Assembly (NCBI RefSeq): GCF_014191375.1
Contig: NZ_JACHWN010000006.1
Coordinates: 1 to 64,000, forward strand
Reading direction: 5' to 3'
Length of the DNA: 64,000 bases
Source of the DNA: Mesorhizobium sp. RMAD-H1
GTDB taxonomy: Bacteria; Pseudomonadota; Alphaproteobacteria; Rhizobiales; Rhizobiaceae
Positions 15,699 to 57,040 of the stretch are shown in pieces; the first letter of the stretch is position 1, and every line of letters begins with the position of its first letter. Made by a program: the position numbers and the translations under genes. The notes beneath the pieces are model-generated. The model was not told the DNA's origin and ran no database searches. It was given only the letters and a program-made list of their open reading frames with translations.

Positions 15699-16742
15699 TC
15701 ACTCCTCCATGAACCGGCTGACGTCCTCGGGATGAAGCTGTTCCTTGAGGGCCGTCCGGAGGGCATCGACGCCGCGCTGGCGCAAATCGTCGTTGAAGTC
15801 CGCGCCAATTGGCGATACCGCGGTCGCCTCGATCCCGACCCTTTCTGCTCTGGCAATCAGGCTGTCTCTTGCAGCATTGCCGGCCGGGTCGCGATCTCGC
15901 AGGACATAAAGCCTGCGCAGCGTTGCCGGGAACAGGATTGCGGCGAGGTGTGCGGCCGAGAGCGCCGCCAGCATCGGCATTTGGGGCAGCACCTGACGGG
16001 GCGACAGAACGGTCTCGATCCCCTCCCCGGCGGCGAGCACCTCATCGGCGATACCGAAGCGGACGCCATGCCCGAGAAGATCCCCCATCGCCCGTCTCGG
16101 CGTCTCGACCGGCGCCTTGCCCGAACCGTCGAGGGAGAGCCAGGTGCGGTGCGCGCCGGTCTGCCGCCCCTCGAGGTCGGTGACGGAAGCGATCATCGCC
16201 GGCCAGATCTCTGTGGGAGAACGCTCGCCCGCCCGGTAATAGCACCGTGGATGGTAGCGCAGCGCGGCGGTGCCGGCGAGCGACCTGATCGCCCGCCCGT
16301 TGAGGTAGATCTCCGCAAGCGTGCCGGTAATTGGCCGGGACATGGCGAAGAGCCGCCGCGCCGCTTCGGGCGAACTGACCGCCATATTCGTTGTCCCTCT
16401 GGTCAGTATCCTCATTCTCTCCGGTTGGGGATGCGGGAGCGAGAGGAACCGGCGCGCTTCCTGGGCCACTTGCCTGAAGTCGACAAGGCCAAGCGCCTCG
16501 CGGATGACATCGAGGAGGTCGCCGTGCTCCCCCGTCGCCATATCGGTCCATTTGCCGGCCGCTCCCTTGCCGGTTTCCGGCCCGGTCAGGCGCACGAACA
16601 TGGACCGGCCCGGACTGTTCTGCACATCGCCGACAATCCAGTATCGCCCGGCGCGACGGCCGGAAGACAGATAGTGGCGGCAGACCGCCTCGGCGTTGCG
16701 GCCGAGACGGATTGCCAGATCGGAAGCATCTTGGCGGGACAT
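15699..16742 (-). CDS. Toprim-domain (primase-like) protein of the conjugative element
   Basis: The 347-residue protein has an N-terminal DUF7146-like region (RAGRYWIVGDVQNSPGRSMF, GKWTDMATGEHGDLLD) and a C-terminal Toprim domain with the acidic residues in AAGEGIETVLS and YVLRDRDPAGNAA. Such proteins are plasmid- or ICE-borne and are thought to prime replication of transferred DNA. Its ATG overlaps the stop of the upstream ParB/helicase fusion (TGATG), so they are translated together. The frame is intact. Confidence 0.85.
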   Translation of the reverse strand: MSRQDASDLAIRLGRNAEAVCRHYLSSGRRAGRYWIVGDVQNSPGRSMFVRLTGPETGKGAAGKWTDMATGEHGDLLDVIREALGLVDFRQVAQEARRFLSLPHPQPERMRILTRGTTNMAVSSPEAARRLFAMSRPITGTLAEIYLNGRAIRSLAGTAALRYHPRCYYRAGERSPTEIWPAMIASVTDLEGRQTGAHRTWLSLDGSGKAPVETPRRAMGDLLGHGVRFGIADEVLAAGEGIETVLSPRQVLPQMPMLAALSAAHLAAILFPATLRRLYVLRDRDPAGNAARDSLIARAERVGIEATAVSPIGADFNDDLRQRGVDALRTALKEQLHPEDVSRFMEE

Positions 16743-18049
16743 CAGGCGGCCTCCCGATCCGAGATACGTTCAACCGGATAGGTGTCGAGCAGCTTGGCGA
16801 GGACAGCCGGACCGGACGCGTCGACAGGCACGAAGAAGCGGAGCTTCCACGAGATGATCTCCGTGAAGAGACCATAGGCGCGCAGGCGCTCCCGCATGGC
16901 TTCGGTGAAACCGGCAAGCTCGATACGGTACGTGCCATCACTGCGGGTAATACTGGCCGCCTCCATCGCCGCATCGAGATGATTGTGGATGATGGCGAAC
17001 GCTCCTGCATGGGCATCGTAGATGCTCCGCTGTTCGTCGGTGAGCTGGTGCTCGACCAGCTCGTATTCGACGCCGTCATACGACAGCGAGCGCGCGGTAT
17101 AGAGGCCGAGCGGGCGAAGGTCGCGGGCCACAACCTCCATCGCCGCGACGCCGCCAGCCTCGATCGCTTCGACGGACACGGCGCGGGTTGCGAACTGAAA
17201 ATCCTCGCCGCCACATAGCCCGAGCCGCTGCGCATAGGCGAGATTGTGGACGGTGATGGCGCCCGTGGCGGACACATGGACGACACGGGCATCGGGAAGC
17301 ACGTGCCGCAGCCGCAGGCCGGCGCGCCCCTGCCGCGAAGGGGCGACGTCGTCGCGTTCTCCCTTGCCGCCGCCGGCGTTCTGCATCGCGTGGCTCTCGT
17401 CGAAAATGATCACTCCATTGAAGGCTTTCGGGTTCCCTGTCGCGGCTTCGCCGCTCCCCGCCTCCTGGCCCAACCATTCGACGATTTGCCGGACGCGCGA
17501 AACCCGTGTCCCGCGGTTGTGGGAGCGTAGCGTGGCATGGGTTGTAAATAGGATGCCTTCATGGAGCGTGATGCTTGCGCCTTGAGGGAAGCGCGACAGC
17601 TGCGTGATAAGCAGGCGCTCCATGCCAAGCGCCGACCAGTCGCGCTGCACATCCTCGATCAGCTTGTCGGACTTCGAGATCCACACGGCCTTGCGGCGTC
17701 CGCGCAGCCAATTGTCGAGGATGATACCGGCCGACTGGCGGCCCTTGCCCGCGCTGGTGCCATCGCCGAGCATGAAGCCACGGCGGAAGCGCGCCGCGCC
17801 CTTGGCATCGGCGGGCGCGGCCTGGACGAGATCGAAGGTCTCATCGACCGTCCAGGATCCGGCGAGATAGCCGGAATGCGCCTCAACGGCATGGATGACA
17901 GTCTCCGAGGTGAGTTCATCGAGGCCGGCCTCGACGTCGATTTCGCGAACATTGCTGTCCGACAGCCTGATCCGGTTGAACGGAATATCGCGCGCCGGCG
18001 AGAAAACGATCATCCGGACAGCGGGTTTCTCCTTGGTAGCTTTGGCCAT
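16742..18049 (-). pseudogene. Chimeric ParB N-terminus fused to a shortened strawberry-notch helicase
   Basis: The 435-residue frame begins like an element-borne ParB (MAKATKEKPAVRMIVFSPA, IPFNRIRLSDSNVRE) for about 45 residues. It then jumps into the helicase part of a strawberry-notch-type methylase/helicase that is normally over 1400 residues: AHSGYLAGSWTVDETFD, FMLGDGTSAGKGRQ (Walker A), IIFDESHAMQNA (Walker B). After NHLDAAMEAASI it jumps again to the extreme C-terminus (YRIELAGFTEAMRERL ... YPVERISDREAA). Both joins are in frame. ParB function, the methylase and the second RecA domain are missing. Confidence 0.82.
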
Positions 18050-18061
18050 GGTGGTTTTCTC

Positions 18062-18107
18062 CGTGACGGGCGCCGAGAGCCTTTCTCTCAGCCCGAAACC
18101 CGTCACG
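18062..18107 (-). promoter_or_regulatory. Hairpin leader of the ParB/helicase fusion, shared with ardC
   Basis: CGTGACGGG pairs with CCCGTCACG around an inner GAGAG/CTCTC stem, 13 bases before the start codon and next to the GGAGA ribosome site. The same GACGGGCGCCG ... GGCTGAGAG arrangement occurs before ardC. Confidence 0.65.
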
Positions 18108-18242
18108 AAGCGAAGCGCCGCCCTCTCACTGTATGAAGGCAGCGCCACGCAATCGGCAAACCAGAAATGCGCGAAGCCGGAATGCGCAGCCCCCATTTTC
18201 GGCGTATCGAAATCCGGAGGGCTCGGCAGCAGGAGTGACTGG

Positions 18243-19205
18243 TTATGCAGCCTTCCTGTCGACCAGGTTTTCCGGTTCGGCATCCGGGCGCTCGGTGTCC
18301 GGCAGGAAGGACAGCAGCCAATCGGCCGCCTTGCTCGCCTGGGATGCGGCGCGCACGATCGCGCGCTTGTCTTCGCGCAGCACCTCGAGCCAAGAGCCTA
18401 TATAGTCCGCATGCCGGACGGTCGGCGCGATGCCAAGCGACGCGCAGCAGAAGGCCGCGTTCATCTCGGCAACCAGTTCCTCGACGGCGTATTTCTTGCT
18501 TCCGAAGCTGCCACTCAGGTCGCGGCAAAGACGAGACGAATGGCCGGTCGCGTGGCCAAGCTCGTGTAGCGCTGTCCGGTGCCAATTGATCGGCTCGAAA
18601 TAGGCCTGCGGCGGCGGGACCTGTACATAGTCGAGCGCTGGCACGTAAATCGCGCGGTCGCCGCCAATGCGAAAGTCAATGCCTGTCGCGCGGATCAGGG
18701 CCTCGACCTTTGGCTCGATCAGGCCCGCCATCGGTGGCGACGGAACAGTCGCGAGCTCGTCGGGCAGGTTCTCGCATTGCGCGGCGTTGAACACGGTGAA
18801 CCGCTTCAGGAACGGAATCGCCTGTGCTTCTTCACCGGTCTCTCGCGCGCGTCGCTTCTCGTCGTCGGGCACGAAGCGGTCTGCGTAGACGATGGTCGTG
18901 CCACGCTCGCCCTTCCGGACGTTGCCGCCGAGCGCGAGGGCCTGGCGGAAGGTGAGCCAGCTCTGACCGGGGAAACCGTGTTCGATCACCGCATCCCAGA
19001 GGATCAGCACGTTGATCCCGGAATATCGCCGGCCGGTCGCGGCGTTTCTCGGCATGGCGAGCGGCGCCTTGGCTGCCGCCGTCCCCCAAGGCTGCACCCA
19101 CGGGACCCGGCCGGCCTCAAGCTCGGCGACGATCTTGCCGGTGATTTCGTCATAGAGGCTCGCCCGTGCCTGGCCGAGGCGAGCGGATGCGGTTTTTCTA
19201 GACAT
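18243..19205 (-). CDS. ardC: ArdC-type antirestriction protein / zincin-like metallopeptidase
   Basis: The 320-residue protein has the N-terminal ssDNA-binding domain of ArdC (LYDEITGKIVAELEAGRVPW, YSGINVLILWDA, GGNVRKGERGTTIVYADRF) and a C-terminal metallopeptidase-like domain with HELGHATGH zinc ligands and VEELVAEMNAAF as the distal Glu helix. ArdC proteins protect incoming DNA from host restriction after conjugation. The frame is intact. The leader forms a hairpin that is shared with the downstream fusion gene. Confidence 0.92.
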   Translation of the reverse strand: MSRKTASARLGQARASLYDEITGKIVAELEAGRVPWVQPWGTAAAKAPLAMPRNAATGRRYSGINVLILWDAVIEHGFPGQSWLTFRQALALGGNVRKGERGTTIVYADRFVPDDEKRRARETGEEAQAIPFLKRFTVFNAAQCENLPDELATVPSPPMAGLIEPKVEALIRATGIDFRIGGDRAIYVPALDYVQVPPPQAYFEPINWHRTALHELGHATGHSSRLCRDLSGSFGSKKYAVEELVAEMNAAFCCASLGIAPTVRHADYIGSWLEVLREDKRAIVRAASQASKAADWLLSFLPDTERPDAEPENLVDRKAA

Positions 19206-19218
19206 CGCGGATCTCCAC

Positions 19219-19258
19219 GACGGGCGCCGGAAGCCTCTCTCCCAGCTCTCAGCCCGTC
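19219..19258 (-). promoter_or_regulatory. Hairpin leader of ardC
   Basis: GACGGGC (19219-19225) pairs with GCCCGTC (19252-19258) immediately upstream of the ardC ribosome site. The loop contains the GGCTGAGAG and CCGGCGCC elements also seen in the leader at 18062-18107. Confidence 0.65.
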
Positions 19259-19285
19259 ATGGCAAACCCGGTCCGCACTCTCACT

Positions 19286-19501
19286 CTAAGGAGGTGTTGC
19301 GGGGAACTCCCGCTGAACGGGTTGGTGGAGACGAGGCTCCGCCGCGGGGGAAAGCCTTCCCCTCAAATTCGCAATCCTGCAATCACGGCATTCAGGCTTT
19401 CCGGGTTTCGAGGTGAGTATGTCGTTCTCGAGCGCCCACTCCACTGTGGCTTCAAACTTGGTGGAGGTGAGCCGAAGCTGGATGTAATGAAGGCTGGCCA
19501 T
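19286..19501 (-). CDS. Uncertain small reading frame, 71 residues
   Basis: The N-terminal half (MASLHYIQLRLTSTKFE, VEWALENDIL) has protein-like composition, while the C-terminal half is Pro/Arg-rich and may not be coding. No family is recognised. It overlaps the decayed tail of the toxin gene and the ardC leader region. It may be a fragment. Confidence 0.25.
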   Translation of the reverse strand: MASLHYIQLRLTSTKFEATVEWALENDILTSKPGKPECRDCRIANLRGRLSPAAEPRLHQPVQREFPATPP

Positions 19502-54836: not shown

Positions 54837-57040
54837 CGGCCCATTTTATCGGCAAACCGCAAACCCGCGTCGACGGCCCCCGAAAAGTGACAGGAGACGC
54901 TCGCTACGCGGCCGACTTCAATCAGGCCGGTCAGGCCTATGCTGTTATTGTAAGCGCTACGGTTGGCCTGGGCCGGGTTACCGGCATCGACAGCGCTCCC
55001 GTCGAGCGGATGCCGGGTGTCACCGCGGTGATCACCCACCGCAACGCCGAAAGGCTGCCTTATCTCCCCCACAAGGCCGGTATCGATCCGGCAGCGGGCG
55101 AACGCCTCCATGTCCTGCAAGACGACAATGTACGCTTCTATGGTCAACCCGTGGCCCTCGTCATCGCGGACACGCTCGATCACGCGGAGCGCGCGGCCGC
55201 GGCGCTGCATGTTTCATATGGGGCCCGCCAACCGCTCGTCGATCCCACGGTGGCGCAGAGCATTGTTCCGGACGGTGCCATGGTCGACAGATCACGCGGC
55301 GATGCCGATGAGGCGATGGCACGGGCGTCGATCGTAATCGACGAGACCTACAATATCGCCCGCGAGAACCACAACCCCATGGAGCCGCACGCGACGATCG
55401 CTTCCTGGAGCGGCGATCGGCTGACCCTGTGGAGCAAGAGCCAGTATCTGGTCAACGAGCGGGCTGAGATCGCCGCCATATTCGGCCTGCCTGTCGAGAA
55501 TGTCGAGGTCATCTGCCCGTTCATCGGAGGCGGCTTTGGAACCAGCCTCAGAACCTGGCCGCATGTCACGCTGGCAGCACTTGCGGCACGCCATATCCGG
55601 CGCCCGGTCAAGCTCGTGCTCACCCGCAGGCAGATGTTCTTCACGACCGGTCATCGGCCACGCACCTTTCAGAGGGTCAAGCTCGGCGCGACGCCTGAGG
55701 GCAGGCTTGTCGGGGTGGCCCATGAAGGAACGGGAGAAACCAGCCGCTATGAACAATTCACGGAGGCACTGACCACCGTCACCGATTACCTTTATTCCTG
55801 TCCCAATGTGCGCACCCAATACCGTCTGGCGGAACTCGACACGAGCACGCCCAATCATATGCGCGGTCCGGGCGAAGCTAGCGGCATCTTTGCGCTCGAG
55901 AGCGCCATGGACGAATTGTCCTACAAGCTCGGGATCGATCCCATCGAGCTACGGCGCCGCAACGAACCGCAGATCGACGAAGCCGAAAACAAGCCCTTCT
56001 CCAGCCGCTCGCTCATGCAATGCTACGAGCTTGGCGCCGAACGTTTCGGCTGGGCCCGAAGAACACCCGAGCCGGGTTCCATGCGCGACGGGCGCCTTTT
56101 CGTCGGCATGGGAGCAGCGACTGCCACCTACCCGGCGTTCCATGCGCCGGCGAGCGCCCGAGTGCGGCTGCTCGCCGGCGGGATGGTCGAAGTGGAGGCA
56201 GCCGCAAGCGACATGGGGCCTGGAACCTATACTTCCATGACACAGGTTGCGGCAGAATTTCTCGGATTGCCGCTGGAACAAATCCGCTTCAGGCTCGGCA
56301 GGTCGGATTACCCGCAGACCCCCTCTCACGGCGGCTCGTGGACGATGGCATCGGTGGGATCGGCAATCCGGGCGGCCTGCCTTGCAGCACAGGCGCAGGC
56401 GGCCCGTCACGCAGTGCAGGATGCAGGCTCGCCGCTCTCCGGGGCGCGGATGGACGATCTCGAATGGAGCGACGGGCGTCTCCGGCGCCGTGGGGATGCC
56501 TCGGCAGGCTTATCGTACCAGGACATTGTAAGCAGAACGCGTGTTCCGATCGAGGCAGCTGGATCTGCGCAACGCGATCCGAAAGTGGCGGAACGATATT
56601 CGATGCACTCCTTCGGCGCGGTGTTCGCCGAGGTTGCCATCGATCCCGATGTGGGCACCATCACCGTGCGCCGCATCGTCGGCGCGTACGGGATCGGCCG
56701 CGTGGTCAATCCTCTTCTCGCCCGCAGCCAGTGTACCGGCGGCATGATCGGCGGCATGGGCATGGCGCTCATGGAACGCACCGTCCTCGATCCGCGTGAC
56801 GGACGGCCTGTCAATGCGGACATGGCCGACTACCTCATGCCTGTCAGTTTGGATATTCCGGAGCTTGAGGCGCACTTCGTCGACGAGGTCGATCCGCACG
56901 TGAACCCGCTTGGTGTAAAGGGGCTTGGCGAGATTGCACTGGTGGGTACTGCTCCAGCGATCGCCAATGCCGTTTTCCACGCGACGGGCAAACGCATGCG
57001 GACGCTGCCTATCACAATCGAAGATATTCTGACCGTCTAA
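54833..57040 (+). CDS. paoC: Molybdenum-cofactor subunit of aldehyde oxidoreductase
   Basis: The 735-residue large subunit has the xanthine-oxidase-family pattern: RVDGPRKVTGDARYAADF, FIGGGFGTSLRTWPH (Moco binding), MRGPGEASGIFALESAMDEL and the end GVKGLGEIALVGTAPAIANA with the catalytic Glu in GLGE. It oxidises aldehydes, often aromatic ones, to acids in the periplasm using molybdopterin cytosine dinucleotide. No XdhC/PaoD-type insertion chaperone gene is seen next to the operon. Confidence 0.93.
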   Translation: MTAHFIGKPQTRVDGPRKVTGDARYAADFNQAGQAYAVIVSATVGLGRVTGIDSAPVERMPGVTAVITHRNAERLPYLPHKAGIDPAAGERLHVLQDDNVRFYGQPVALVIADTLDHAERAAAALHVSYGARQPLVDPTVAQSIVPDGAMVDRSRGDADEAMARASIVIDETYNIARENHNPMEPHATIASWSGDRLTLWSKSQYLVNERAEIAAIFGLPVENVEVICPFIGGGFGTSLRTWPHVTLAALAARHIRRPVKLVLTRRQMFFTTGHRPRTFQRVKLGATPEGRLVGVAHEGTGETSRYEQFTEALTTVTDYLYSCPNVRTQYRLAELDTSTPNHMRGPGEASGIFALESAMDELSYKLGIDPIELRRRNEPQIDEAENKPFSSRSLMQCYELGAERFGWARRTPEPGSMRDGRLFVGMGAATATYPAFHAPASARVRLLAGGMVEVEAAASDMGPGTYTSMTQVAAEFLGLPLEQIRFRLGRSDYPQTPSHGGSWTMASVGSAIRAACLAAQAQAARHAVQDAGSPLSGARMDDLEWSDGRLRRRGDASAGLSYQDIVSRTRVPIEAAGSAQRDPKVAERYSMHSFGAVFAEVAIDPDVGTITVRRIVGAYGIGRVVNPLLARSQCTGGMIGGMGMALMERTVLDPRDGRPVNADMADYLMPVSLDIPELEAHFVDEVDPHVNPLGVKGLGEIALVGTAPAIANAVFHATGKRMRTLPITIEDILTV

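Follow-up and report, generated by a model that had tools for sequence, protein, structure and literature searches.

Establishment genes help decide whether a plasmid or an integrative and conjugative element survives on entry. To our knowledge, the timing of such genes has yet to be explained for Alphaproteobacteria (rhizobia, Paracoccus, sphingomonads). In Bacillus plasmids of the pLS20 family, a conserved leader rich in inverted repeats, EGeRS1, directly precedes the ribosome sites of ardC and of several further establishment operons; in the part of that report consulted, no strong σA promoter is reported for it, a single-stranded DNA promoter is judged highly unlikely by the authors, and a block on read-through from upstream promoters is reported (PMC8708921). 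ArdC of R388 is required in the recipient and not in the donor, according to the consulted part of another report (PMC7213743).

We analysed a 64,000-nt stretch of Mesorhizobium sp. RMAD-H1 (contig NZ_JACHWN010000006.1, positions 1 to 64,000; the window). An earlier note had proposed that the unrelated ardC and "ParB fusion" genes of the window share a hairpin leader, which might be a common switch for establishment genes or a single-stranded promoter active on incoming DNA. Both leaders are on the minus strand, with start codons at 19205 (ardC) and 18049. The ardC gene (18243 to 19205) encodes an ArdcN ssDNA-binding domain and a zincin-like metallopeptidase (Pfam PF08401 and PF18818). The second gene (16742 to 18049, minus strand) does have a ParB-like N-terminus. 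According to Pfam and to blastp against the Sphingopyxis pMC4 and L182 genes, the remainder consists of two segments that derive from a strawberry-notch helicase (AAA_34), and the gene is a deletion chimera rather than a plain fusion. Residues 1–64 are 59% identical to the L182 ParB-like protein and residues 10–46 are 49% identical to the Sphingopyxis one; the chimera then aligns to residues 439–761 (76%) and 1374–1440 (75%) of the Sphingopyxis strawberry-notch protein. It looks like the remnant of two deletions that kept the frame. The leader of the chimera itself shows a full fit to the covariance model described below.

The two leaders are copies of one element of about 76 nt. Both were seeds of the covariance model, whose whole matches in the window extend from 19211 to 19290 for ardC (92.9 bits, E 4.7e-26) and from 18057 to 18135 for the chimera (82.9 bits, E 4.8e-23), both on the minus strand. 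When aligned, they have a mean column identity of 81% and fold similarly, each into a lower stem TGACGGG/CCCGTC, a 5'-side bulge, an 8-bp upper stem, and a 5-nt loop. The hairpin core of the ardC leader (19219 to 19259, −33.2 kcal/mol, z −3.7) has the loop AGAGG at 19234–19238, and that of the chimera leader (18065 to 18105, −36 kcal/mol, z −5.6) has AAAGG at 18080–18084. The upper stems differ yet still pair, with A-U versus G-C at one pair and G-C versus G-U at the next. The core stem ends 13 and 15 nt ahead of the start codons in the two leaders. The Shine-Dalgarno (SD) sequence GGAG lies at 19213–19216 for ardC, 7 nt before the start codon, where a longer fold pairs GGAG and part of the spacer, and at 18059–18062 for the chimera, 9 nt before the start codon, where sequence, pairing counts, and fold indicate that an outer stem closes over it. 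The GACGGG/CCCGTC stems claimed for both leaders are thus borne out by the like folds and by the joint pattern GACGGG...CTGAGAG, which occurs twice in the window versus 0.03 times expected by chance; their extent had been drawn too short, as the stem runs on across the SD sequence.

The box that the earlier note had thought shared, GGGCTGAGAG, is present in both leaders, but it is not homologous, as it occupies the bulge and upper stem in the 18-kb copy and the lower stem and bulge in the ardC copy. The conserved box is instead AGAG-NN-AGAG, which starts 27 nt (18-kb copy) or 28 nt (ardC copy) before TGACGGG, in both cases outside the parts that had been marked. In the box columns of the 191-element profile, it reads AGAGTGAGAG in the ardC leader (19278 to 19287, minus strand) and ACAGTGAGAG in the chimera leader (18123 to 18132, minus strand), with the consensus AGAGNNAGAG. 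Short strings taken singly were at background levels. Exact GGCGCCCGTC stands directly ahead of both ribosome sites, with one more copy in the window at 56087; with up to one mismatch, it occurs 20 times in the window (17.2 expected), and GGGCTGAGAG occurs five times (6.0 expected). A loose stem pattern had 19 matches in the genome itself versus 27 for its backward control. The beyond-chance signal is in the whole leader and not in short strings. The covariance model found two significant copies in this genome, the third match having an E-value of 0.87.

When 297 genomes of the same order were searched for a strict pattern with the two stem halves fixed, 51 had it, whereas its backward control was found in 4 of the 297. 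After five fetched loci (one duplicate and four judged by eye to be chance) and sites with a flank off the locus had been left out, covariance model R1 was built from 34 seed leaders. Since the seed pattern fixed TGACGGG and GGCGCCCGTC, the invariance of the lower stem is partly imposed; later model matches relax it (for example, GACGAG/CTCGTC, GACGGA/TCCGTC, and GGCGAA/TTCGCC). At E ≤0.01, R1 matched at least 30 of 385 genomes of the class (own included), at least 27 of them with E <1e-5, and at least 34 of 398 genomes of the phylum (own included), of which 33 were Alphaproteobacteria and the remaining one had an E-value of 0.0055. These counts are lower bounds, because 11–12 candidates were scored per genome; the class and phylum samples overlap, and the share of the phylum sample outside the class is not given. 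Combined with the pattern-fetched loci, 196 matches were obtained, 194 of them unique (118 from genomes, own included, 71 from titled contigs, and 5 from viral contigs), the genome and titled-contig collections overlapping and only identical elements (2 of 196) having been merged.

A pattern scan of titled contigs gave at least 120 stretches. Among those listed, 49 carry the element (31 of 80 and 18 of 40), and the other 71 of the 120, in which the model matched nothing at E 1e-4, can be presumed to be chance occurrences. The 49 matching contigs bear names of Alphaproteobacteria, except for "Proteobacteria bacterium" (three) and "Bacterium" (one). Wherever the class can be told, the element is found in Alphaproteobacteria. 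The viral collection yielded 69 stretches, with clear elements in L107 and L155 and a weak match in L147 (E 0.0077). Contig L155 holds three leaders within 1.6 kb (L155:3184-4804), ahead of genes for ArdC, a 130-aa family, and a ParB-like protein, and is possibly a plasmid filed as a virus. Using leader-plus-start queries, blastn matched 206 and 76 plasmid records, some of which may owe their matches to the coding part. On a Mesorhizobium contig, there are five matches to group II introns (L263:1649-5666, minus strand), in sets of three and two with equal scores, near an ardC leader (1400-1477). A survey of ArdC gave 30 loci from 22 of 190 class genomes, one further ArdC fragment having no locus. 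The leader precedes ardC at the eight loci whose ArdC is at least 74% identical to that of the window (itself included) and none was seen ahead of ardC at the 22 loci with at most 71% identity; before ardC, in this sample, it is restricted to one ArdC lineage.

The anatomy of the element was read from a profile of 191 near-full copies, three gapped ones of the 194 being left out. Conservation sets in at the AGAG-NN-AGAG box, which is followed by a poorly conserved linker of near-constant length and the bulged hairpin, and it stops at GGAG. The box is exactly AGAGNNAGAG in 161 of 191 elements, GGAG is present in 187, and the loop is AGAGG in 130 and starts with AGAG in 155. In 167 of 173 classified copies, the start codon lies 5–8 nt past the modelled element. 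No strong conservation across all copies was seen in the 120 nt upstream, and the shared part is therefore not an evident promoter; a search for σ70-like promoters around the leaders found 0 where 0.2 were expected, and is uninformative at that expectation. The leader is not a coding extension in general, since its frame with respect to the start codon differs between copies and 41 of 173 copies contain in-frame stops. An intrinsic terminator or attenuator was rejected as well: the stem is followed by the SD sequence, there is no U run, and no terminator-like site was found at either leader of the window.

The pairing was evaluated in a MAFFT alignment, made without structure, of 148 elements drawn from the 191 near-full ones. 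Of its 3092 cells 92.6% were paired, and 178 were compensatory, versus 65.0 in shuffles; both-side changes occurred at 14 of 21 pairs, versus 9.1. Controls with slid pairing reached at most 52.0% paired, 60 compensatory cells, and 11 pairs. Unprompted, RNAalifold recovered the central hairpin, with 15 pairs, 11 of which had both-side changes. The earlier note had staked its proposal on covariation or conservation of the stem beyond this locus, and the covariance check, once run, revealed both in many genomes. In model-fitted alignments of the 194 unique elements, the pair types were 2878 Watson-Crick, 466 G-U, 51 A-C, and 59 other, 23 of the 51 A-C cells being located at the pair beside the bulge. 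Because G-U cells far exceed A-C cells in the sense orientation, the fold is assigned to the sense strand. Combined with the nearly constant spacing to the start codon, this is evidence for an mRNA element and against both a single-stranded promoter in the template strand and a duplex operator. A cis-acting RNA element is well supported by these comparisons. The common switch proposed earlier thus finds support in its RNA-level version, from the covariation, the sense-strand wobbles, the near-fixed spacing, and the likeness across genes, while its single-stranded promoter option is contradicted.

The outer stem covers the SD sequence. The four GGAG columns are paired in 92, 96, 66, and 84% of elements; for the base that follows, the figure is 73%. 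In ardC leaders, two more spacer positions are paired in 84 and 83%, and 31 of 58 such leaders have a G-A mismatch at one SD pair. The cost of opening the SD sequence was calculated for classified elements, 12 without a readable gene and 9 assigned to "other" being left out, as they were from the class counts above. The mean cost was 7.10 kcal/mol, versus 3.15 kcal/mol with a dinucleotide-shuffled leader, and the native cost exceeded the shuffled one in 154 of 171 elements. The increase was seen for ardC (8.45 vs 3.56 kcal/mol), parB (6.57 vs 2.93), DUF932-like (6.19 vs 2.85), and 130-aa family (6.80 vs 3.30) leaders. The exception is a 182-aa family (five members), whose opening cost is 5.12 vs 3.51 kcal/mol, yet whose SD unpaired probability is 0.44 vs 0.31. 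Given the raised opening cost, the ribosome site is predicted to be closed by default, except perhaps in the 182-aa family. The AGAG box is only about half unpaired in the predictions (0.52). A two-state switch via upstream CGG:CCG pairing was considered and rejected, since the frequency of such pairing is not above the expectation for independence.

On balance, we lean towards a translational lock in the mRNA, common to the genes of an ardC–parB module and set by a putative factor that reads AGAG motifs. The 5' leader would offer two AGAG motifs, with a third in the loop of the bulged hairpin, and the base of the stem would pair with the SD GGAG and, in the majority of ardC leaders, with the start of the spacer too, leaving the ribosome site closed by default. 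One putative trans factor (an RNA-binding protein or a small RNA, encoded by the host or by the element) would recognise these motifs and set the degree to which the lock opens; a single factor seems most likely because the motifs and the geometry are kept ahead of different genes. The result would be a translation-level regulon of ardC, the genes for the ParB-like and DUF932-like proteins, and further members of the module. Comparison or prediction supports the structure and its covariation, the strand that folds, the location at the ribosome site, the resemblance across gene families, and the sequestration. We infer, in addition, the trans factor and the direction of its control: the AGAG motifs would be its contact, translation would stay low until the lock opens, and the purpose would be joint timing of establishment genes after DNA entry. 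The wider proposal of an RNA-level establishment regulon, in which, on entry of a conjugative element into an alphaproteobacterium, one AGAG-reading factor jointly unlocks or limits the translation of ArdC, ParB-like, DUF932-like, and further proteins, is tentative, and we regard it as possible rather than probable.

The serious rival to the factor-set lock is a fixed 5' hairpin that has no dedicated regulator and lowers translation or protects the mRNA to a fixed level, AGAG being a ribosome standby or nuclease-related signal. The strongest signals are those of the stem and the SD geometry, the purine tracts AGAG and GAGG resemble an SD sequence, the analysis turned up no regulator gene, and a strong hairpin at the ribosome site could suffice alone. 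However, the box, the spacing, and the loop are kept beyond the needs of a plain hairpin (loop AGAGG in 130 of 191 elements, box in 161 of 191) and are common to different genes, and we consider this explanation unlikely, if still to be reckoned with.

The genes that follow the 194 elements encode ParB-like proteins (76), ArdC (59), DUF932-like proteins (30), and members of the 182-aa (5) and 130-aa (3) families; 9 are "other", with an AlpA-like regulator and a protein weakly similar to DUF6884 among them, and 12 are unreadable (contig edge or broken). For DUF932 and DUF6884, the Pfam matches fall short of the curated cut-offs, the name DUF932 coming also from plasmid annotation, and two of the three 130-aa copies score only 31–32 bits, one of them, L066, being without the box by eye. 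Inspected by eye, L070, L087, L238, and L284 among the "other" genes are variant or broken forms of ParB-like, ParB-like, DUF932-like, and ArdC genes, respectively; L055, L071, and L205 are different genes, and L024 and L097 have no clear class. On annotated plasmids, the genes tend to form one module, not every gene being present in each record: ardC or DUF932, DUF2958 or a RadC-annotated protein, a ParB-like gene, a strawberry-notch or similar helicase, toprim, and DUF2493. Several members each have their own leader, and two or more leaders are present in 65 of 126 loci. Two leaders (L290:3342-3420 and L338:14998-15076) precede DUF932-like reading frames that are missing from the plasmid gene tables. 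Another copy is followed by a protein (L289:21717-22235) whose annotation, DNA repair protein RadC, looks doubtful, as it has no Pfam match and by eye resembles the 182-aa family. A 54-aa protein downstream of the ParB-like gene is strongly conserved on three plasmids (L289:8237-8401, L291:16154-16318, and L293:24559-24723), with no Pfam match for the L293 copy; it was rejected as a regulator, being, by eye, acidic and not RNA-binding-like.

A lesser rival is feedback by a protein of the module: ArdC, which is ssDNA-binding, or the ParB-like protein would bind its own and its neighbours' leaders and shut them once abundant. The genes that most often follow the element are those for ArdC and ParB-like proteins, and, in the consulted part of the report, R388 ArdC prefers single strands over duplex and partial duplexes with overhangs over perfect duplex, though RNA binding by ArdC is not seen there (PMC7213743). 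The composition of the loci speaks against such autogenous control: 22 of 126 have ardC leaders only, 20 have parB leaders only, and 22 have DUF932-like and parB leaders without an ardC leader, many of the loci being about 3 kb long, so that a second gene may lie beyond them. We judge feedback to be improbable.

The lock set by one factor also has to be viewed against the age of the sharing. For 55 of 58 ardC, 69 of 76 parB, and 18 of 30 DUF932-like leaders, the closest other leader stands before a gene of the same class. Leader likeness is 0.706 between different genes at one locus, 0.712 between different genes anywhere, and 0.770 within a class. As leaders of different genes at the same locus are no more alike than elsewhere, recent copying is argued against, and the sharing appears to be old. 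A common ligand would account for its persistence; old paralogy and slow change could, however, keep leaders alike without one.

A double-stranded DNA operator, with TGACGGG/CCCGTCA as palindromic half-sites for a dimeric repressor, would account for the palindromic and well-conserved lower stem. It would not be expected to have upper-stem letters that co-vary to keep pairs, G-U pairs, or a one-sided bulge; moreover, the position of the element tracks the SD sequence and no conserved promoter adjoins it, which makes an operator very improbable. A single-stranded DNA promoter of the Frpo/ssi type on the incoming strand, suggested by a hairpin ahead of an anti-restriction gene on mobile DNA, is contradicted by the sense-strand pairing, as a template-strand fold would give A-C wobbles in the sense strand (466 G-U versus 51 A-C seen), and by the lack of conserved promoter-like sequence, no promoter-like hexamer being seen by eye in the consensus stem; the stem is G+C rich, it ends only 13 and 15 nt ahead of the start codons of the window, and we find such a promoter hardly credible. 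Chance similarity or recent local duplication of one leader, to which the mere two significant copies in this genome might point, has a negligible probability in view of the 51 of 297 order genomes with the strict pattern (four for the backward control), the at least 27 of 385 class genomes with E <1e-5, and the grouping of leaders by gene and not by locus.

Searches of Rfam 15 at gathering scores gave no match in the window and none at the elements of 18 further loci. Relaxing the search to E-value thresholds added nothing stronger than E 1.1, with one weak match inside ardC (E 4.8) and two touching elements of L155 (E 1.3) and L204 (E 1.1), far below gathering. The radC RNA (RF01754), whose members we take to be 5' leaders of DNA-handling genes, invites comparison in that one element here precedes a RadC-annotated gene; it differs in that its model has 149 positions, and it was rejected, as 0 of 150 order genomes (own included) were over the cut-off and no listed weak place coincided with an element. 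The literature searched, which covered few subscription papers, held no description of the leader; outside that search stands a list of 224 candidate RNAs reportedly given by a 2017 study. Leaders that sequester the ribosome-binding site are well known as such. The novelty lies in a single conserved leader that is common to several different mobile-element genes and has no Rfam match; it appears to be an uncatalogued RNA element that would allow one factor to control several genes together. Being compact and widespread, the leader predicts set membership for uncharacterised genes (the DUF932-like, 182-aa, and 130-aa families), and could serve as a short RNA bait for the regulator.

Among known systems, STAXI RNA is likewise structured and located near ssDNA-binding, topoisomerase, anti-restriction, and integrase genes, but differs in its tandem pseudoknots and frequent UUCG tetraloops, according to the part of the source consulted (Weinberg 2010, PMC2864571); it had no match at gathering scores in the window and the 18 loci scanned. 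The Frpo/ssi promoters of F and ColIb-P9 are also hairpins upstream of anti-restriction genes on conjugative DNA, but they form promoters on the transferred strand, as described in the consulted part of PMC8708921, whereas the element here pairs in the sense strand. EGeRS1 may be regarded as a functional parallel, likened by description and not by sequence. In the part of its report consulted, it measures 400–600 bp and belongs to Bacillus plasmids, while the element here is 76 nt long, belongs to Alphaproteobacteria, and is predicted to close the SD sequence. As in an EGeRS-like establishment regulon, the same leader is found ahead of several genes, including an anti-restriction gene. If the RNA-level establishment regulon proves true, it would constitute a third route of timing, besides DNA repressors and single-stranded DNA promoters.
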